Assembly: GCA_028281025.1 (NCBI GenBank)
Contig: JANQKR010000038.1
Coordinates: 1-64,000 of the forward strand
DNA length: 64,000 bases
Direction: 5' to 3'
From: Croceivirga sp.
GTDB lineage: Bacteria; Bacteroidota; Bacteroidia; Flavobacteriales; Flavobacteriaceae
Positions 3,844-64,000 of this stretch are shown piece by piece. A program made the position numbers and the translations under genes. Under the pieces are notes generated by a model. It did no database searches, was not told the DNA's origin, and saw only the letters and a list, made by a program, of their open reading frames with translations. The first letter of the stretch is position 1, and every line of letters begins with the position of its first letter.

Positions 3844-5241
3844 TTATTTTAAGCTGCCAACCATATCTTCGGGTTTTACCCACTCATCATATTCTTCCGG
3901 GGTAACGTACCCTAGGTTTACGGCTTCTTCCCTTAGGGTAGTCCCATTCTTGTGGGCAGTATTGGCAATTTCTGCTGCTTTGTAATATCCTATTTTAGTG
4001 TTCAGTGCCGTAACCAACATCAAGGAATCGTTCAATAGTTTAGTTATGGTTTTATGATTGGGTTCAATTCCCACGGCACAGTTCACATCAAAGCTCACGC
4101 AAGCATCGCCGATCAACTGGGCCGATTGCAGGATATTCGCGGCCATGACCGGTTTAAAAACGTTCAACTCATAATGCCCTTGTGTTCCTCCAACAGCAAT
4201 GGCCACATCATTGCCCATTACTTGGGCGCATACCATTGTCATGGCCTCACATTGGGTGGGATTTACCTTTCCGGGCATAATGGAACTGCCGGGTTCATTG
4301 GCTGGGATGATGATTTCCCCAATCCCGGAGCGTGGTCCGGAAGCCATCATTCGGATATCGTTCGCTATTTTATTTAAGGAGACCGCCAATTGCTTTAATG
4401 CGCCGTGGCTTTCCACGATCGCATCATGGGCGGCCAAAGCCTCAAACTTATTCTCAGCCGTAACAAAGGGCATTCCAGTGAAATCGGCAATATATTTGGC
4501 TACCAGGACATCATATCCTTTGGGCGTATTCAAACCTGTACCCACTGCCGTTCCCCCCAATGCCAATTCTGCGAGATGGGGCAACGTATTTTTCAACGCC
4601 TTAAGGCCATGGTCCAATTGCGAAACATAACCTGAAAACTCTTGTCCCAGAGTTAGGGGAGTGGCATCCATTAAATGGGTCCTACCAATCTTTACAACCT
4701 CTTTGAATTCTTCTGCTTTCTTTTTCAAGGTATTTTGGAGTTGCAGCACACCGGGGATGGTGACCTCCACTATTTTCTTGTAGGCTGCAATATGCATTCC
4801 CGTAGGGAAGGTATCGTTGGAAGATTGTGATTTGTTCACATCATCATTGGGTTGAATGGTCTTCTCACCCTCTCCAATGGTTTTTCCGGCCAGTTCGTGG
4901 GCCCTATTGGCAATTACCTCATTGACATTCATATTACTTTGGGTCCCTGAACCCGTCTGCCAAATGACCAATGGAAATTGGCTGTCATGTTTACCCTCTA
5001 AAATCTCATCACAAACCGTGGCGATCAAGTCCCTTTTTTCCTTTGCAAGTACCCCCAGTTCATGATTGGCGTATGCAGCGGCCTTTTTTAGGTAGGCAAA
5101 ACCGTACACCACTTCCAAAGGCATGGAAGCCGTAGGCCCAATTTTAAAATTGTTTCGGGAGCGTTCCGTTTGCGCACCCCAATACTTATCGGCAGGCACC
5201 CTTACCTCGCCCATAGTGTCTTTTTCAATCCTAAATTCCAT
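3844..5241 (-). CDS. fumC: Class II fumarate hydratase
   Basis: A cytosolic, iron-independent TCA-cycle enzyme that interconverts fumarate and L-malate. The class II signature [11 protein letters not shown] is present, along with [10 protein letters not shown] (catalytic His region) and [14 protein letters not shown]. The open frame extends upstream to an ATG at 5274, but that extension contains the -7 promoter box at 5261-5268. I therefore start at the ATG at 5241 ([16 protein letters not shown]). This gives 465 residues, close to the usual FumC length. The gene is monocistronic and shares a bidirectional terminator with its convergent neighbour. Confidence 0.96.
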
Positions 5242-5260
5242 TGTGAAAAATTTTACCGTA

Positions 5261-5268
5261 CAAAGGTA
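5261..5268 (-). promoter_or_regulatory. -7 element of the fumC promoter
   Basis: On the minus strand this reads TACCTTTG, matching the Bacteroidota -7 consensus TAnnTTTG. It lies about 20 bp before the fumC ATG and rules out the upstream in-frame ATG at 5274. I see no clear -33 TTG at the usual spacing. Confidence 0.6.
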
Positions 5269-5328
5269 ATCCATGAAAAAGGTATTTGTTCCTGATAAAT
5301 GTTTGGAATTATATTTTTTTTATTGTCC

Positions 5329-5360
5329 TTGCAATTTTGAATTATTTCAAAGTATCTTTG
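5329..5360 (+). promoter_or_regulatory. Promoter of the 57-residue membrane protein gene
   Basis: The -33 TTG at 5329-5331 is followed, after 21 bp, by the -7 TATCTTTG at 5353-5360. This is a full match to the Bacteroidota promoter pattern. The start codon is 18 bp downstream. Confidence 0.7.
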
Positions 5361-5378
5361 TCGTATAAATAAGAACTC

Positions 5379-5552
5379 ATGGTAGAATTTGACCAATATC
5401 TCGGATTTTTAGCCTTTTTGACCATCTTGACCATAGGTTTTTGGCTAATGATTTTCTTATTGACCTTTGTAGTGCCCTATTGGTTAACGGGCAACCTCAT
5501 GGAAATGTGGAAAGAAAGACGCGAGGCCAAAAAGGCTGAGCTTGAAGAATAA
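5379..5552 (+). CDS. Small single-span membrane protein, 57 residues
   Basis: A 57-codon gene beginning MVEFDQYLGFLAFLTILTIG. It has one long hydrophobic span (about residues 9-33) and a charged, probably cytoplasmic tail (MWKERREAKKAELEE). Support for a real gene comes from a good promoter 18 bp upstream, a hairpin terminator starting at the stop codon, and its own intergenic space between two divergent or convergent genes. The function is unknown; a small regulatory or complex-associated membrane protein is possible but unproven. Confidence 0.75.
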   Translation: MVEFDQYLGFLAFLTILTIGFWLMIFLLTFVVPYWLTGNLMEMWKERREAKKAELEE

Positions 5553-5579
5553 AAAAAGGAGCCATTCGGCTCCTTTTTC
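5553..5579. terminator. Bidirectional intrinsic terminator
   Basis: Stem AAAGGAGCC / GGCTCCTTT with loop ATTC, flanked by an A run and a T run. It can end the small membrane gene on the plus strand and the TonB-dependent receptor gene on the minus strand. Confidence 0.85.
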
Positions 5580-5580
5580 T

Positions 5581-8016
5581 TTATGGGGTTCCAAACTCTT
5601 CATCATCACCTTCATAATCCCTTTGCCTATCACCACCCCGTTTTTTCTTTTGATTAAAACGATAGGTAAATGCCAGATTGTAACTGCGTACCCTCCATTG
5701 AAACTCACTATCGTTGTTGAATAAAGGGGTTACCGTTTCACTGATTCTTCGCCTGCTATTGAACACGTCACTTACATTGACGGCCAAGGAGGCCTGTTCC
5801 TTGAAAAAATCCTTGCTAAAGGCCAAGTCCAGTGAAAAAATGCCCTGGTTCCTGGTCTGGGCGTTTTCCGTGGGACCACGATAAAAGATTCGGGTTTGCC
5901 AATCGATGCTGGAGGGAAGGGTAATTTTATTGTTTAGGCGTATGAACCAACTTAGGTTTTCGGCATCAAAATTTTGGTCGTTAAAGTCGCCTCTGGTGAT
6001 AAAATTAAACAAGTTGATATTGGTATTCAGGTTCCATTTTCGGGTGGGTCGGTAGGTAGCGGTAAAATCCAGTCCATATCGGTCGTTTCGGGCCAAGTTT
6101 ACAGGAGTTCGCCTTAAAATACTGAGCTGTTCCCCATCAAAGAAAGTATCCTCCCCGGTGTCCTCCACAATAAAAGTGATGACATTGGTGGAGCGTTGGA
6201 AATAGATCGATCCGTTCAACGTCAACTTTTCCCATCGTTTAAGATATCCCAACTCAATTTGGTTGGAAAAGCTTGGGGTCAGATTGGGATTTCCCTGAAA
6301 AAGGTTGGTAGGGCTTGATCTAGACGGAAAAGGATTAAGAAACCTGGACCTGGGCCTGCGTATTCTACGATTGTACCCCAGTTGGAAACTCTCTTTTTCG
6401 GAGATTTCGTAATTCAAATTCAAAGTAGGGAAAAGACCATCAAAATTGTTTCGGTTAAAATCACCGGTCTCGATTTGGTTGATGATCAGCCGTGTGGCCT
6501 CATATCGTAGTCCCGCTAGAAAGGAAAAATCCTTGAACTTGTTCCCGTATTGGGTATAGAACGCATTGATGGTTTCCTTAAAGTCGAGCACGTTACTGGG
6601 ATCGGTTATTCCCAGGACATCCAGGGTGGGTTCAATGAATACCACATCATAATCCGTATTCAAACGGTTAAAATCCCCTCGGTAACCAACTTCAAACTGT
6701 CCGTTTTCACCCAGGGGCACCACGTAGTCGGATTGCATAAAGACCCTTCTTTGGTTCTCCGCAGTTCGCACACTTTCGCTATCAAATCCATTTTGGACGA
6801 TCAGGGATTCCTCAACTTCATCACTCTCCTCATATTGAAAGGCAAAGGTGAGCGTGTGGTCCAATTCCCCATTGAATTGCTTGTCAAAATTAAAGGCATA
6901 TTGAAAAGTGTCATCTTTCTCCGTTTCTGGGTCAAATCTGAAGCCCGAACGGGTATTTCCCGCAACATCACTTTGGACAAAGTTGTTGGTGGTCTCGCTT
7001 TCATTGTCAGAATCCCTTACGAAAATGGATTGTGTAATGGAGGCCGTTTTATTGATGTACCATTCCACACCCAAGTTGGCATTCAATCCTCTTCTGATTC
7101 GGTCAAAATCGCGTTCCTCGCGCAGGGCATTGGTGAAATTTCCCTCGGCATCAAAAAAGTCCGTATCATTTAGGGAATTTCCGGGACGTGTCCTGTAATT
7201 ATATCCGGTGTTGGTAAAAATATTGATGTTGCCGGTTCTATAGTTGAGATTGCCATTGATGCCCGCGGATTCCGGATATCCCCCGTTCACGGTAAGGGCA
7301 CCGTTGAGGCCCTGTAATTTACTTCTTCTAAGAATGATATTGATGATTCCTCCGGATCCCTCGGCATCGTAACGAGCGGATGGGGAGGTGATTACTTCCA
7401 CTTTTTCTATGGATTCTGCCGGTAATTGGCGTAAGGCCTCAGTACTGTTCAATCCGGTTATCGCAGAGGGTTTACCATTGATTAGGATGCGAACATCATC
7501 ATTTCCGCGTAATTGTACATTGCCCTCCACATCAACGGATACGGATGGAACATTGTCCAAGACGTCGCTGACCGTTCCCCCTTGAACCGTAAGGTCCTTA
7601 CCCACATTGTAGATTTTTTTATCCAATCGAAGCTCTACCGTGGTCTTTTCTGCCACCACTTCAACCTCTTCCAATAGGGAAACATCGGGAGATAGGTAAA
7701 TTATTCCCAAATCCGTATTGGAGCGAAGTTGTTGTTTTTTGGATACATAGGTAGTATAGGCAATGTATTCAACGGAAATGTTGAAGATGCCGGGAGGTGT
7801 TTCTACCTCAAATTTTCCCTCGGCGTCGGTGATACCTCCGGTTATTCTCTTGGGATTTCGAATGCTTTGCACTATTAAAGTTGCGTATTCGAGGGGTTGT
7901 CCGGTATCCTTGTCGATAACTGTTCCTGTAATTTGTATGGGTTTAAAGTTTTGGGGTTTTTGGGCGAGTGCCAGTATGGGTATGATCCATACGAGCACCA
8001 GGAACAGTTTCTTCAT
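5581..8016 (-). CDS. Outer-membrane beta-barrel protein, TonB-dependent receptor family
   Basis: An 811-residue outer-membrane protein. It has a signal peptide ending near LALAQ, then a carboxypeptidase-regulatory-like beta-sandwich (about 28-110: GTVIDKDTGQPLEYATLIV). A TonB plug-like domain follows (about 125-230: VSDVLDNVPSVSVD, VQLRGNDDVRILINGKPS, IEKVEVITSPSARYDAEGSGGIINI). The rest is a barrel with many aromatic beta-strands. This matches the flavobacterial 'outer membrane beta-barrel family protein' group, whose ligand is usually unknown. No SusD partner is adjacent. The 151-residue secreted protein gene upstream ends 1 bp before this start, so the two are almost certainly co-transcribed. 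The C-terminal end after the last strand is charged (KKKRGGDRQRDYEGDDEEF), unlike the usual terminal aromatic. Confidence 0.88.
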   Translation of the reverse strand: MKKLFLVLVWIIPILALAQKPQNFKPIQITGTVIDKDTGQPLEYATLIVQSIRNPKRITGGITDAEGKFEVETPPGIFNISVEYIAYTTYVSKKQQLRSNTDLGIIYLSPDVSLLEEVEVVAEKTTVELRLDKKIYNVGKDLTVQGGTVSDVLDNVPSVSVDVEGNVQLRGNDDVRILINGKPSAITGLNSTEALRQLPAESIEKVEVITSPSARYDAEGSGGIINIILRRSKLQGLNGALTVNGGYPESAGINGNLNYRTGNINIFTNTGYNYRTRPGNSLNDTDFFDAEGNFTNALREERDFDRIRRGLNANLGVEWYINKTASITQSIFVRDSDNESETTNNFVQSDVAGNTRSGFRFDPETEKDDTFQYAFNFDKQFNGELDHTLTFAFQYEESDEVEESLIVQNGFDSESVRTAENQRRVFMQSDYVVPLGENGQFEVGYRGDFNRLNTDYDVVFIEPTLDVLGITDPSNVLDFKETINAFYTQYGNKFKDFSFLAGLRYEATRLIINQIETGDFNRNNFDGLFPTLNLNYEISEKESFQLGYNRRIRRPRSRFLNPFPSRSSPTNLFQGNPNLTPSFSNQIELGYLKRWEKLTLNGSIYFQRSTNVITFIVEDTGEDTFFDGEQLSILRRTPVNLARNDRYGLDFTATYRPTRKWNLNTNINLFNFITRGDFNDQNFDAENLSWFIRLNNKITLPSSIDWQTRIFYRGPTENAQTRNQGIFSLDLAFSKDFFKEQASLAVNVSDVFNSRRRISETVTPLFNNDSEFQWRVRSYNLAFTYRFNQKKKRGGDRQRDYEGDDEEFGTP

Positions 8017-57455: not shown

Positions 57456-58019
57456 ATGGATAAACAAAATAACGCAAACCTTGAAACGGCCATTCTGGCC
57501 AACGGCTGTTTTTGGTGCACAGAGGCTGTATTTCAAAGGCTTAAAGGAGTAAGGTCAGTAGTATCAGGTTATACGGGAGGAAACATCAAAAATCCTGCGT
57601 ATCGCGAAATCTGTACTGGAAGAACAGGACATGCAGAGGCCATCAAAATTACTTTTGACCCTAAGGAAATTTCCTTTCAGGAATTATTGGAAGTTTTTTT
57701 CGCTACACATGACCCTACAACCCTTAACCGCCAGGGAAATGATGTGGGCACCCAGTACAGAAGTGAAATTTTCTATACCACGGAAGGGCAAAAACGTTTG
57801 GCGGAACAGTATATTCAATTTTTGGAAGGGGAAAAAGTCTTTTCGGACCCTATAGTTACGGCTATTTCTGAAGAGAAACCGTTTTATGTTGCCGAAGAGG
57901 AGCATCACAATTATTATAATGAACATGGTCTTCAACCCTATTGCCAATTCATCATCAATCCAAAAATCAAAAAACTGCAAAAACACTTTGCGGACAAACT
58001 AAACACCGTCAAAAACTAA
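57456..58019 (+). CDS. msrA: Peptide methionine-S-sulfoxide reductase
   Basis: A 187-residue cytosolic repair enzyme that reduces methionine-S-sulfoxide in proteins. The active-site motif [10 protein letters not shown] is present, with [25 protein letters not shown] and EEHHNYY in the usual order. A TATTTTTG box lies at 57376-57383, 72 bp upstream. The folE gene follows after 1 bp. Confidence 0.95.
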
Positions 58020-58020
58020 C

Positions 58021-58620
58021 ATGGCACCCTACAAAAACCTTGAGGAGTATAACATTGAATTGACCAATGAGGTCAAAGACCGCTATTTAAAGATCATTGA
58101 TGAGATAGGGGAGGATGTGTCCCGGGAAGGACTTTTAAAAACCCCCGAACGTGCTGCTAAGGCCATGCTTTTCCTGACCCAGGGATACAAGCAGGATGCC
58201 GTGGAAATCTTAAGAAGTGCCATGTTCAAGGAGGAATATGACGATATGGTCATCATAAAGGACATTGAACTGTATTCGCTCTGTGAACACCATATGCTTC
58301 CCTTTTTTGGGAAGGCGCATATTGCCTATATCCCCAATGGACATATTGTGGGATTGAGCAAAATTCCAAGGATTGTCGATGTGTTTGCAAGACGATTGCA
58401 GGTTCAGGAACGATTGACCCACGATATTTTGGAATGTATCAACAATACCTTAAAACCAAAAGGGGTCGCCGTGGTTATTGAAGCATCCCATATGTGTATG
58501 ATGATGCGGGGAGTACAAAAACAGAACTCGGTTACCACAACTTCCGGATTCAGGGGACAGTTTGAAAAGATTGAAACACGGAACGAATTTTTGAAACTGA
58601 TCAGTTCCGATTTGTCTTAA
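58021..58620 (+). CDS. folE: GTP cyclohydrolase I (housekeeping copy)
   Basis: A 199-residue enzyme that converts GTP to dihydroneopterin triphosphate, the first step in folate and pterin synthesis. Zinc ligands lie in [12 protein letters not shown] (Cys, His) and [12 protein letters not shown] (Cys). [24 protein letters not shown] and [10 protein letters not shown] are hallmark blocks. It is co-transcribed with msrA (1-bp gap). A second, divergent copy lies at 61.7 kb in this window. Confidence 0.95.
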
Positions 58621-60689: not shown

Positions 60690-61742
60690 ATGTCAAGAAT
60701 CAGTATTGTACTTATCCTATTACTTTCGGTTCAAATGGGTACTTCCCAGAAAACACTGCAACAAGTACTTGGGGATGACACACGTCCTGCCAGGGAAAAC
60801 CTCCGTATTCAAGTGGAAGACAGTTTGGGCAATAGGGGTTATTTACCCGTTTCCGTCGTAAAAGGCAAGGGGGAGGGGCCAACTTTTACCATAGTTGCTG
60901 GTGTTCATGGATTTGAGTACCCGCCCATAGTTGCCACGCAGCAACTAATGAAGGAAATAAAAATGGATTCATTGTTGGGTACAATTATCTTTGTTCCTAT
61001 TGCCAATAGAAGTTCTTTTTACTCAAGAACACCATTTTTCAATCCACAGGATAAGGTCAATCTGAACAACGCCTTTCCCGGTGATGCCAATGGAACAATT
61101 ACACAGCGTTTGGCCCATATCATCACCGAAAACATCATTCCGGTAAGCGATGTATTTTTGGATATCCATGGTGGTGACGCTCCCGAAGACCTTTTGCCCT
61201 TTATCTGCTATTACAACAATAAGAAGCGACCGAAACAGACCCAACGGGCCAAAGCGCTTTCTGAGGCAAGCGGATTTGATTATATCGTTTCATATCCCTA
61301 TACCCTTTCGGATGGGGAACCGGCAAAATATACATTCAAACAAGCCGTTCAGGACGGCAAGACGGCTTTGAGTATTGAATGCGGAAAATTGGGGAACGTG
61401 CAAAAAGAAGCGGTGGCATTAATTAAAAAGGGTGTTTATAATATGTTGGCCGAAATGAAAATGTACGGTAGGGGCAAACGGACCAATAATAATCCCACAA
61501 GATTGAACAGTCAGGTTTATATAAGGTCAAAAGAAACGGGTGTTTTCTACAGTTTTGTTAAGGCTGGTGATTCCGTAAGCAAAGGTGATGTTGTTGGCCG
61601 TACTACGGATGAATTCGGTAGGGAACTTGCCCAATACAAAGCACCTGTTTCCGGAATCGTATTATATAATCTGGCGACACCGCCCATTAGCAAGGGTAAT
61701 ACCGTTATGTGCATTAGTCGATTTTTGGAGGAGAACAGGTAA
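60690..61742 (+). CDS. Secreted succinylglutamate desuccinylase/aspartoacylase family protein
   Basis: A 350-residue zinc-dependent hydrolase of the M14-like AstE/AspA family, with signal peptide (ISIVLILLLSVQMGTSQ). Metal ligands are in AGVHGFEYPP (His, Glu) and DVFLDIHGGDAPED (His). Further features are VPIANRSSFYSRTPFFNP and LSIECGKLG. A C-terminal beta-sandwich with RTTDEFGRELAQYKAPVSGIV resembles a lipoyl-like tail. The natural substrate is unknown. Its stop codon abuts that of the convergent second folE. Confidence 0.88.
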   Translation: MSRISIVLILLLSVQMGTSQKTLQQVLGDDTRPARENLRIQVEDSLGNRGYLPVSVVKGKGEGPTFTIVAGVHGFEYPPIVATQQLMKEIKMDSLLGTIIFVPIANRSSFYSRTPFFNPQDKVNLNNAFPGDANGTITQRLAHIITENIIPVSDVFLDIHGGDAPEDLLPFICYYNNKKRPKQTQRAKALSEASGFDYIVSYPYTLSDGEPAKYTFKQAVQDGKTALSIECGKLGNVQKEAVALIKKGVYNMLAEMKMYGRGKRTNNNPTRLNSQVYIRSKETGVFYSFVKAGDSVSKGDVVGRTTDEFGRELAQYKAPVSGIVLYNLATPPISKGNTVMCISRFLEENR

Positions 61743-62411
61743 TTAAAGGTTCTTAAAGTTGTTCTTAAGAAGTCCGTAGAATTCGTTTCGTGAATTCTCA
61801 TTGGTAAACTTTCCTCCGTACTCCACAGTGGTTGTAAAACTGTCCTTGTCCTTGATTCCCCTGGATGAAACACAAAGGTGTTTGGCGTGTACCATAACGA
61901 TGACATCATCGGTTTCCAAGGTTTCCTGCAAATCGTTCAGGATTTGTAAACAAAGACGCTCCTGGACTTGGGGTCTGTGGGCATAATAATCGACCAATCG
62001 GTTAATTTTTGACAATCCTACTACCTTATTTTTGGGAATGTATCCAATATGGGCATGACCAATAATGGGTAAAAAATGATGTTCACAGGACGAGTCGATG
62101 GTAATATCCTGTTCTACCAACATTTTTTGATAGCCGTATGTGTTTTCAAAAGTGGACAATTGGGGACGGTTATCGGGATTTAGTCCATAAAATAGTTCTT
62201 GGACATACATTTTTGCAAAACGGTAGGGTGTTCCCGAAAGACTGTCGTCATTGAGGTCCATCCCCAAAGTTTCCATTATTTTTTGAAAGTGATGTTGTAT
62301 GCGCTCAATCTTTTCCTTATCGCTGAGCAAAAAAGCATCTTCCCGCATTGGGGTTTCCAGGGAAGTGGCAATATGTTGATTCCCAAGGGTCTCTATTCTT
62401 TCAATATCCAT
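61743..62411 (-). CDS. folE: Second GTP cyclohydrolase I (putative metal-stress copy)
   Basis: A 222-residue class IA GTP cyclohydrolase. It has all hallmark blocks: SSCEHHFLPIIGHAHIGYI, VVGLSKINRLVDYYAHRPQVQERL, AKHLCVSSRG and FTTTVEYGGKF. Cys and His ligands are kept, so it is not the zinc-independent FolE2 (COG1469) type. It differs clearly from the folE at 58.0 kb (for example CVSSRG instead of CMMMRG). It is second in an operon with the MerC-type gene (16-bp gap), whose promoter overlaps a palindromic operator. Housekeeping function is covered by the other copy; a metal-limitation role is inferred. Confidence 0.92.
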   Translation of the reverse strand: MDIERIETLGNQHIATSLETPMREDAFLLSDKEKIERIQHHFQKIMETLGMDLNDDSLSGTPYRFAKMYVQELFYGLNPDNRPQLSTFENTYGYQKMLVEQDITIDSSCEHHFLPIIGHAHIGYIPKNKVVGLSKINRLVDYYAHRPQVQERLCLQILNDLQETLETDDVIVMVHAKHLCVSSRGIKDKDSFTTTVEYGGKFTNENSRNEFYGLLKNNFKNL

Positions 62412-62427
62412 AATGATCAATTAAGGT

Positions 62428-62847
62428 TTAGGCATTCAGCTTTTCGTCGGTACAGCACTGTTCGTGACCACAATTGCAGTACTTCCTATTGTACAGATGG
62501 AAGAAGACAAGGGCGATGGATGGAAAATATATGGCCTGTTCCGCTAAAGGAAATAGGTGGATTTTCTCATTTATAACAATAAGCGCCAAAAGTCCCCAAC
62601 TACCCCAAAGTAGGTTGCGCATCCATTTTTTGGAAGTGGTTTTGGCAGACCACCAAATGGCAAAAAAGGAAATGGCCAAAAAGACCAAATCCAGTATGCC
62701 CCACCATTGGGGATGCAATTCTCCGGCCCCTGCTATTCCTGCTTGGGCCACAAACAAAAAGGGAGTGACCACACAATGTACCAAACAAAGTGCACTGGCC
62801 AGGGCGCCAACGATATCGGATTTTGATGTCAATTGAAGGGTATTCAT
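62428..62847 (-). CDS. MerC-domain membrane protein with Cys/His-rich tail
   Basis: A 139-residue inner-membrane protein with four spans. The MerC-type core has ALCLVHCVVTPFLFV (Cys-x-x-His-Cys-like) in the first span and GILDLVFLAISFFAIWW later. The C-terminal tail NRKYCNCGHEQCCTDEKLNA is rich in Cys and His and looks metal-binding. MerC proteins bind or carry metal ions such as mercury; Bacteroidota MerC-like proteins are thought to concern zinc or other metals. It is the first gene of the divergent operon with the second folE. Confidence 0.88.
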   Translation of the reverse strand: MNTLQLTSKSDIVGALASALCLVHCVVTPFLFVAQAGIAGAGELHPQWWGILDLVFLAISFFAIWWSAKTTSKKWMRNLLWGSWGLLALIVINEKIHLFPLAEQAIYFPSIALVFFHLYNRKYCNCGHEQCCTDEKLNA

Positions 62848-62875
62848 ATGGTTTTATGACTTGCAAAATGAAATG

Positions 62876-62903
62876 CAAAAATAACTTAAAATCGCAAACG
62901 CAA
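62876..62903 (-). promoter_or_regulatory. MerC/folE operon promoter
   Basis: On the minus strand TTG (62903-62901), 17-bp spacer, TATTTTTG (62883-62876). The -33 TTG lies inside the palindrome at 62896-62916, so a bound regulator would block it. The MerC ATG is 29 bp downstream of the -7 box. Confidence 0.7.
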
Positions 62904-62916
62904 CTCAGTCGCATTT
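62896..62916. promoter_or_regulatory. Fur/Zur-type palindromic operator candidate
   Basis: AAACGCAACT, central C, AGTCGCATTT: a 10-1-10 imperfect palindrome (8 of 10 pairs match). It lies between the divergent MerC/folE operon and the ABC transporter operon. The size and the GCAACT half-site fit Fur-superfamily operators. Binding and identity of the regulator are not shown. Confidence 0.55.
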
Positions 62917-62927
62917 AAAATTCTTCT

Positions 62928-62935
62928 TAAGTTTG
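62928..62935 (+). promoter_or_regulatory. -7 element of the ABC transporter promoter
   Basis: TAAGTTTG, matching TAnnTTTG, ends 4 bp before the ATG at 62940. This implies a very short leader, or that the second ATG (62949) is the true start. The -33 region coincides with the palindromic operator. Confidence 0.5.
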
Positions 62936-62939
62936 TAAG

Positions 62940-63575
62940 ATGACACAAATGGTCAAAACGGAAGGACTTCAGTTTAAGTACCCGGGGGGACAGGCTTTTG
63001 AGTTTCCCAATATTATTTTGAATAGCCAGGAACATCTATTGGTGCTGGGGCCTTCTGGGGTTGGGAAGACCACTTTACTCCATTTACTTTCGGGAATATT
63101 ACCGGCCTCCAGTGGTTCCATTGTGATTAATGAAACTGAAATTACTGCTTTGGACCGAAAGGGTCTGGATTTATTTCGTGGCGCATATGTTGGGCTCATT
63201 TTTCAGCAATACCATTTCATAAAATCCTTGAACGTTGATGAAAACCTTAGGTTACGGCAGAACTTTCCCAAAAAAACCATGGATAAGGAGCGAAGGTTTG
63301 CCATTGCGGAACGATTGGGACTGACCCCATACCTCAAGAAAAAGGTAATGCAATTGAGTCAAGGACAGCAACAACGACTGTCCATAGCTTTGGGGTTGAT
63401 CCATCGACCCCAGGTAGTCTTTGCCGACGAACCCACCTCCAATTTGGATGATTTTAACTGTAATCAGGTTATAAATTTGTTAAAAGATGAGGCTGAATTA
63501 TGTGGGAGCAGTTTGGTCATTATAACCCACGACCAACGGGTTACCCAACATTTTTCAAATCAAATTGTGCTATGA
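62940..63575 (+). CDS. ABC transporter ATP-binding protein, MacB/LolD-like
   Basis: A 211-residue ABC ATPase. Walker A is GPSGVGKTT, the Q-loop region is LIFQQYHFIKSLNVDENL, the signature is LSQGQQQRLSIAL, and Walker B is VVFADEPTSNLDD. This is the type that energises FtsX-like permeases. It starts at ATG 62940 or 62949. Its stop overlaps the permease start by 4 nt (ATGA). It resembles in layout the Zur-regulated ABC pairs of proteobacterial Zrg-type zinc systems; this is inference. Confidence 0.88.
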   Translation: MTQMVKTEGLQFKYPGGQAFEFPNIILNSQEHLLVLGPSGVGKTTLLHLLSGILPASSGSIVINETEITALDRKGLDLFRGAYVGLIFQQYHFIKSLNVDENLRLRQNFPKKTMDKERRFAIAERLGLTPYLKKKVMQLSQGQQQRLSIALGLIHRPQVVFADEPTSNLDDFNCNQVINLLKDEAELCGSSLVIITHDQRVTQHFSNQIVL

Positions 63576-64000
63576 ACCTTTTGTATTTAGCCTATCGCAA
63601 CATGGTCTCAAAACCCTTGAATATGGTTTTGAGCCTGGTACTTTTGGTACTTAGCGTTTCCTTGGTCACTTTTGTCCTGCAGCTCGGTAAGCAACTGAAC
63701 GGACAAATGGACAAGAACATTACCCCAGTAGACATGGTCGTTGGGGCCAAAGGGAGCCCATTGCAGTTGGTGCTTTCCTCCGTTTTGCATATTGACGTAC
63801 CTACGGGTAACATTAAACTGAAGGAGGCGGAGTCCATTAAGAATCATCCCTTTGTGGGGTCTGCCATATCCGTTTCCTATGGGGATAACTACAAAGGGTA
63901 TCGCATTTTGGGTACGGAACCGGGTTATTTGGATAATTATGGTGTTGTTTTAAGCGCGGGAGGTTTATTTCAACAACCTTTTGAAATAGTGGCTGGGAAT
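63572..64000 (+). CDS. FtsX-like ABC transporter permease (partial, runs off window)
   Basis: The first 143 codons of a permease, open to the window end. It starts MNLLYLAYRNMVSKPLNMVL with one hydrophobic span (VLSLVLLVLSVSLVTFVLQL), followed by a periplasmic MacB-like domain opening with NITPVDMVVGAKGSPLQLVLSSVLHIDVPTGNI. The segment DMVVGAKGSPLQLVLSSV is like the DLIVGARSGSVQLLL element of proteobacterial permeases that occur in zinc-linked ABC operons. The start overlaps the ATPase stop by 4 nt. Confidence 0.85.
   Translation, partial: MNLLYLAYRNMVSKPLNMVLSLVLLVLSVSLVTFVLQLGKQLNGQMDKNITPVDMVVGAKGSPLQLVLSSVLHIDVPTGNIKLKEAESIKNHPFVGSAISVSYGDNYKGYRILGTEPGYLDNYGVVLSAGGLFQQPFEIVAGN

Follow-up and report, generated by a model that had tools for sequence, protein, structure and literature searches.

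A MerC–FolE and MacB-type transporter divergon of Croceivirga as a probable unit of a Zur-like zinc-limitation regulon in Bacteroidota

What could join a MerC-type membrane protein and an extra GTP cyclohydrolase I (FolE) to a MacB-like ATP-binding cassette (ABC) transporter encoded on the opposite strand? We address this question for a divergent locus, the divergon, in the 5.1-Mb genome of a Croceivirga sp. (Flavobacteriaceae; GenBank assembly GCA_028281025.1). The window, the whole stretch of DNA that was analysed, is the first 64 kb of contig JANQKR010000038.1 (C40, whose numbering is that of the window), and the divergon runs across its right-hand end. An earlier note on the window had proposed a zinc-limitation divergon of Bacteroidota. 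A recurring gene set, an operator and zinc-limitation marker genes support this proposal, and we hold with good confidence that the divergon is one unit of a Zur-like zinc-limitation regulon. Zinc as the metal, repression and any direction of transport are what we infer from sequence.

Layout of the divergon

The left operon, on the minus strand, is headed by the gene for a MerC-type four-helix membrane protein (62428-62847; PF03203 69.6 bits, cut-off 27.6), followed by that for an E. coli-type FolE of class IA (61743-62411; PF01227 200 bits, NF006824 261 bits with a cut-off of 202). On the plus strand, the right operon opens with the ATPase of a split MacB-type transporter (62940-63575; PF00005 93 bits), the stop of which is overlapped by the start of an FtsX/MacB-type permease with a His-rich loop (63572-65002, with FtsX and MacB_PCD over cut-off). 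It continues unbroken beyond the window on the same contig through two paralogous small, putatively DUF3299-like proteins (64995-65438 and 65440-65874, plus strand) to a Fur-family regulator, FurA (65888-66292, plus strand), which is the last gene and lies 2 kb past the window end. Within each operon, successive genes either overlap or are separated by no more than 16 bp. Gene calls and family matches thus confirm the described pairing of a FolE and a MerC carrying a Cys/His tail, divergent from an ABC ATPase and FtsX-like permease. The nearest named relatives of the permease come from Allomuricauda, Croceivirga, Muricauda and Flagellimonas.

A conserved operator between two promoters

The 21-bp palindrome reported between the two gene sets is present at 62896-62916 (AAACGCAACTCAGTCGCATTT), common to both operons, and pairs at 8 of 10 positions. 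We rejected the palindrome alone as evidence, as the 64 kb contain 44 equally well-paired 21-bp windows (0.06 expected per 93 bp; random controls for the palindrome and box analyses were first-order Markov samples rather than exact shuffles). It stands out from chance because it is conserved in relatives. Comparison of intergenic regions gave the consensus TGCAACTNAGTTGCA, from which the 15-bp core of the divergon (CGCAACTCAGTCGCA, 62899-62913) differs by 2 mismatches.

Matches to the core pattern TGCGACTGAGTTGC with at most one mismatch occur at just two other places in the whole genome, in tandem on contig C13, where they separate the gene for a second Fur-family protein, FurB, from a second MerC gene, with DUF1826 and then a COG0523 GTPase downstream. 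At the same tolerance, TGCAACTNAGTTGCA finds three sites in this genome (reversed pattern, one): the two on C13 and one upstream of a gene for an LCIB-type carbonic anhydrase. Exact matches to TGCAACTNAGTTGCA number 18 in 14 of 100 family genomes, against none for the reversed pattern; FurB or MerC accounts for 13 of them and a ZigA-like gene for two, while one each falls at a His-rich lipoprotein, at an unassigned gene and within a gene. Many FurB-MerC intergenic regions contain two sites, mostly 38 bp apart. Matches inside a susD-like gene (L162) and inside large genes (L138, L146), and those at phasin-like genes (L147, L154), appear to be due to chance; the names susD-like and phasin-like are our own reading.

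To relate the operator to gene class we used loci fetched by permease homology, which are therefore independent of the operator pattern, and counted a site if it had at most 2 mismatches to TGCAACTNAGTTGCA within -250 to +60 of a gene start. We excluded L036, identical regions, any region that contained N or lay at a contig end, and matches under score thresholds that we chose. A site is found at 39 of 40 MerC starts, 17 of 21 FurB starts and 10 of 32 COG0523 starts. Control genes have none (0/74: MsrA 0/13, PhoD 0/7, HupE 0/16, DUF6702 0/11, M14 0/12, FolEhk 0/9, MogA 0/6), and operon-internal genes almost none (permease 0/111, FolEz 0/31, small protein 1/99). Counts for further classes are 0/4 for DUF1826, 0/1 for DinB, 2/8 for LCIB, and 0/5, 0/12 and 1/5 for three classes of TonB receptor. 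For MerC, 17 of 57 matches were excluded (13 weak matches, L036, the repeats L205 and L232, and L177, which contains Ns). We prefer these counts to those from a set of 24 FurB/MerC regions, 7 of which were fetched by the operator pattern (L143, L145, L156, L157, L161, L165, L167) and 4 of which come from genomes already included (L232, L205, L258, L165).

The operator also has a fixed relation to promoters. We identified 21 divergent MerC/ATPase pairs with a strong MerC match, or 19 after dropping the repeats L172 and L175, and 18 of these 19 distinct regions contain a site with at most 2 mismatches. On the ATPase side, the sequence TAnnTTTG, which we take to be the Bacteroidota -7 promoter box, starts 13-15 nucleotides from the core in 17 of the 19 (not L093 or L178); on the MerC side it starts 15-16 nucleotides from the core, again in 17 (not L096 or L171). 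By chance, a box of this kind would be expected anywhere on a given strand in about 2.3 of 17 regions. In the divergon itself, the boxes are at 62876-62883 (minus strand, MerC-FolE operon, 15 nucleotides from the core) and 62928-62935 (plus strand, ABC operon, 14 nucleotides). Given this spacing on both sides, a single bound repressor would occupy the DNA immediately upstream of the two -7 boxes. Four divergent pairs with a weak MerC (L095, L190, L196, L208) show 3, 3, 2 and 1 mismatches and have no box at the fixed distance.

Genes behind the operator point to zinc

Across genomes, the operator precedes genes for COG0523/ZigA-like GTPases, DUF1826, FolE, a ZIP protein together with a DtxR-type regulator, TonB receptors, LCIB carbonic anhydrase, HisI and a His-rich lipoprotein. 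A table in a review of Zur regulons gives folE2, hisI2, yciC or zigA, a carbonic anhydrase and TonB receptors as targets (PMC6103462), and DUF1826 is named in the legend of a figure on Zur-regulated COG0523 clusters (PMC2770081). The regulon proposed here would share with the Zur regulons of that review a Fur-family regulator, a palindromic operator at promoters, and COG0523/ZigA, FolE, HisI and TonB receptors as targets. Although no single gene is proof, the set as a whole appears hard to explain by another metal.

The second cluster of the Croceivirga genome, on C13 (L036, 408-7112), comprises FurB, a second MerC (MerC2), DUF1826, a ZigA-like GTPase, a MogA-like protein and a TonB receptor, with two operators. 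Its COG0523 GTPase scores 561 bits (E 1e-168) against the ZigA model NF038288, just under the curated cut-off of 600. The LCIB-type carbonic anhydrase gene (C40:72010-72723, minus strand; L035 10011-10724), 10 kb beyond the divergon, has a 1-mismatch operator at 72906-72920; in several relatives this gene follows COG0523 and a DinB-fold gene within one operator-led cluster. Elsewhere, an operator has a TonB receptor on one side and a DtxR-type regulator-ZIP pair on the other, with a FolE adjoining (L150 of genome G009, 4161-6515). In genome G096 one operator precedes a HisI gene and COG0523 (L254, 3544-5493) and another a His-rich lipoprotein whose match to ZrgA is below threshold (L254, 8588).

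Two Fur-family regulators

Of the Fur-family genes, FurA is linked to the divergon and FurB lies on C13; we typed them by profile, with proper FurA scoring above 220 bits and proper FurB above 190. Genome G009 has FurA without FurB and G002 has FurB without FurA, yet both have the operator at MerC. This pattern suggests, but does not prove, that either FurA or FurB can read it. A joint FurA/FurB profile matches, after its closest solved chain, 2o03 (a probable zinc uptake regulator), two chains named for metal uptake, which are presumably Streptomyces Zur, and 4mtd (a zinc uptake regulation protein). Further Fur paralogues (L277, L278, L294 and L296-L299, from G001, G003, G010, G007, G004, G008 and G006) score 84-116 bits against FurA and 61-78 against FurB.

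Several observations weigh against a zinc-limitation regulon. At the operator, the site in the window has 2 mismatches, and sites that good number 13 genome-wide against 8 for the reversed pattern, so it convinces only through its relatives. A site lies directly at the ATPase in just 28 of 107 cases and at FurA, the last gene of its operon, in 0 of 21. Of the 13 weak MerC-like matches that were excluded, 6 come with a site and 7 without one; L177, a strong MerC excluded for Ns, has 3 mismatches; and the loci are related, so that the counts are not independent. As to the regulators, FurA scores 27 bits against the curated Zur model NF008646 (cut-off 167) and FurB does not match it, the best NCBIfam match of both is a Fur model, and among solved chains their joint profile comes closest to one named ferric uptake regulation protein. 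Additional FurA-like paralogues occur in several genomes of the genus, including G001, which lacks the whole system. Finally, zinc is required by the known enzymes of the class to which the divergon FolE belongs. The Zur-controlled copy of Cupriavidus is described as class IB, and its class IA enzyme as malfunctioning under zinc starvation (PMC10882993). Because the curated Zur model is not reached, we do not call the regulators Zur, and describe only a Zur-like setting.

The same Fur-model scores would suit a locus that answers to iron, manganese or cobalt, with a Fur-, Mur- or PerR-like protein as its regulator and with MerC and the ABC pair handling that metal. Such an alternative could also draw on the DtxR-type regulator gene beside the operator in G009 and on a MacB operon of Pseudomonas that is linked to cobalt-pyochelin (PMC11481552). 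However, the gene set behind the operator (ZigA-like GTPase, DUF1826, HisI, FolE, ZIP) is elsewhere a zinc-limitation set, and the genome holds two further Fur-family proteins with higher scores on the Fur model. We therefore regard another metal as unlikely, and zinc as the probable signal.

Conservation of the gene set

The anticipated conservation of gene order and operator in Flavobacteriaceae is borne out: both recur in the genus and in other members of the family, and a site precedes the ATPase in some other Bacteroidota loci, among them loci of Cyclobacteriaceae, Echinicola, Algoriphagus, Dysgonomonas and Pedobacter. Two arrangements recur. In the first, shared by most of the genus and its closest relatives, FolE-MerC is divergent from ATPase-permease-small protein(s)-FurA. 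The second, seen in G002, G003 and other genera, has FurB divergent from MerC-FolE-(MogA)-(COG0523)-ATPase-permease-small protein. Many loci have other gene orders or lack parts. A permease, a MerC, and FurA or FurB are present in 10 of 11 genomes of the genus; G001 is without permease, MerC, FurA, FurB or any site with at most one mismatch, and retains a more distant FurA-like paralogue. The set is patchy, as a close permease (E 1e-20 or better) occurs in only 25 of 199 family genomes. Among the named loci, which are the best 80 of at least 586, a recognized MerC, COG0523, FolEz or Fur gene lies on the fetched stretch in 38. An alphaproteobacterial locus from Sphingorhabdus (L238) brings together DUF1826, COG0523, MerC, a reading frame that we read as Zur-like, ATPase, permease and DUF3299.

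This spread bears on whether the two halves of the divergon are chance neighbours, that is, an ordinary lipoprotein- or antibiotic-type MacB/LolCDE exporter beside MerC-FolE, with a palindrome that serves one side only. The permease does have weak LolCE similarity, and many loci either show the ABC pair at a distance from MerC or show no MerC. Against this, several other genera run MerC, FolE, COG0523, ATPase, permease and small protein codirectionally as one cluster behind FurB, divergent regions have a promoter box on both sides, and the ATPase carries the site in loci without an adjacent MerC (for example L195, L207 and L211). We consider a chance association very improbable.

Three neighbouring sets of genes have no operator at any member, and we rejected a role for them on this basis. 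An AstE/AspA-type (M14-like) gene at 60690-61742 (plus strand) points towards the divergon FolE and also lies beside FolE in some relatives. A HupE/UreJ_2 and DUF6702 pair adjoins FurA (C40:66376-67471, minus strand; L035 4377-5472) and recurs in the genus and some other loci. The third is PhoD.

The proteins of the divergon

In MerC, residues C21, H24, C25, D53 and H117 are invariant in 31 of 31 aligned sequences, and the tail is Cys-rich (CNCGHEQCC). The predicted model has four helices (predicted local distance difference test score, pLDDT, 78.7) and found no fold match in a structure search. The conserved residues look like a metal path, and MerC may have a role in zinc import. Mercury-transporting MerC proteins carry a Cys pair. 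The divergon protein shares with them the Pfam family, four predicted membrane helices and helix-1 cysteines, but has CxxHC in place of the pair and sits with Fur, FolE and COG0523. That the locus is a remnant of mercury resistance, with MerC importing mercury beside unrelated neighbours, is extremely unlikely despite the PF03203 match, and was rejected for lack of a curated MerA match (best in the whole genome 378 bits against a cut-off of 454); no other mer family matched among the surrounding genes scanned, and across genera MerC is linked with FolE, Fur and the operator.

The divergon FolE was described as class IA with its ligands kept, and family scores over cut-off and alignment of relatives agree. 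We take the metal ligands to be the C of SSCEHH, its second H and a later C; the first two are kept in 33 of 33 aligned relatives and the last in 31 of 33. Six positions are fixed in the clade but have other residues in the genome's two further E. coli-type copies, and none of the six is a ligand. All 11 listed FolE copies with at least 70% identity (from 10 of 100 family genomes) lie beside MerC, whereas the other listed matches are at most 62% identical, one partial copy among them (G061, 54%) also lying beside MerC; some MerC loci have no FolE. The earlier note placed a housekeeping folE with msrA 3 kb away. Both genes are there (FolE 58021-58620, only 37% identical to the divergon FolE; MsrA 57456-58019), but the label is doubtful because the genome has four FolE homologues, and the E. 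coli-type copies C24:85487-86116 and C37:598892-599530 are equally good candidates.

All 113 permeases with a profile score above 250 (some of them from repeat loci) have at least 3 His within a span of 30 residues, and 111 of the 113 have at least 4. The small proteins share a conserved SCFFCG motif and, in our reading, a signal-peptide-like start. Neither of the two in the divergon operon matches PF11736 (DUF3299) directly; of six relatives scanned, four pass the cut-off, one falls below it and one (L217) does not match, so the pair may be called DUF3299-like by transitivity only. A PDB sequence search with the small proteins gave nothing convincing, and Foldseek matched a predicted model (pLDDT 88) mostly to OB-fold domains, none at E 0.001 or better.

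Relation to known systems

Split MacB transporters with DUF3299 are described under Zur control in Vibrio and Pseudomonas (PMC9817125, PMC11481552). ZrgABCDE of vibrios and PA4063-PA4066 of Pseudomonas resemble the divergon in that ATPase and FtsX/MacB-type permease are separate proteins in a Zur-type setting; their DUF3299 partner (ZrgE, PA4066) may have its counterpart in the two small proteins here. The divergon differs in that a single operator couples MerC-FolE to the transporter and in that ZrgA (DUF2796, PF10986) is missing: the search beyond position 64,000 that the earlier note called for yielded the regulator FurA, but 0 of 100 family genomes has a ZrgA-family protein over cut-off, with one sub-threshold His-rich lipoprotein in G096. 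With ZrgA missing, the His-rich loop inside the permease may do its job. The transporter thus appears to be a relative of the Zrg/PA4063-4066 systems without ZrgA, in a locus that would work like a Zur regulon. Because the Pseudomonas MacB is proposed to export pyochelin-cobalt and was annotated earlier as zinc uptake (PMC11481552), we leave the direction of transport by the ABC pair undecided.

The Zur-controlled folE_IB2-cobW1 operon of Cupriavidus metallidurans likewise places a spare GTP cyclohydrolase and a COG0523 GTPase under zinc control, and as that operon is presented there, the most tightly controlled one, it has two Zur boxes at one promoter (PMC10882993), a parallel to the paired sites of many FurB-MerC regions. 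The spare enzyme there is metal-promiscuous class IB, whereas the one here is class IA with zinc ligands kept. Other differences from described Zur regulons are that neither regulator passes the curated Zur model, which is of E. coli type, and that the proposed targets include MerC, class IA FolE and LCIB-type carbonic anhydrase, not met in the parts of the Zur review used here (PMC6103462).

Proposed mechanism

In the mechanism that we propose, a Fur-family repressor (FurA and/or its paralogue FurB) would bind 62896-62916 when zinc is sufficient and silence both divergent promoters. As zinc falls, the repressor would leave, turning on the MerC-FolE operon and the operon encoding ATPase, permease, two DUF3299-like proteins and FurA. 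MerC would most likely carry zinc or a substitute metal across the inner membrane by way of its C-x-x-H-C, Asp and His residues. The extra FolE would sustain folate synthesis through better zinc capture, zinc received from the ZigA-like GTPase, or use of another metal. The ABC pair, like MacB/PA4064-65, would be an ATP-driven envelope machine handling metal or a metal carrier through the His-rich loop and DUF3299-like partners. Every transport step in this scheme is one that we infer.

A bolder proposal, which we advance tentatively and would not yet bet on, is that Bacteroidota have a zinc-limitation regulon of their own, with a AAATGCAACTNAGTTGCATTT-like operator read by either of two Fur paralogues outside curated Zur. 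It would include a MerC-fold zinc importer, a class IA FolE tuned to zinc scarcity in place of a class IB spare, and LCIB as a spare carbonic anhydrase.

Significance

The main text of the Zur review (PMC6103462) contains no occurrence of Bacteroid* or Flavobact*. Literature searches, which covered open-licence papers only so that absence is not proof, found no Zur regulon of Bacteroidota and nothing on MerC with Zur, Bacteroides with Zur or LCIB with Zur. A Riemerella paper concerns ZntR, and a paper on the Flavobacterium johnsoniae ribosome mentions Zur, in the passages seen, for other bacteria only (PMC9976891).

Bacteroidota are a major phylum of sea, soil and gut, whose zinc control is thus absent from that review's main text, and the operator offers a testable handle on the whole regulon. 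On this reading, MerC-domain proteins would have a function other than mercury resistance, LCIB-type carbonic anhydrases would be connected with the supply of metal, and it becomes a puzzle why a zinc-type FolE should be placed under a zinc-starvation switch. An exchange of regulator, FurA or FurB, with the operator retained would be a clean case for the study of regulatory evolution.

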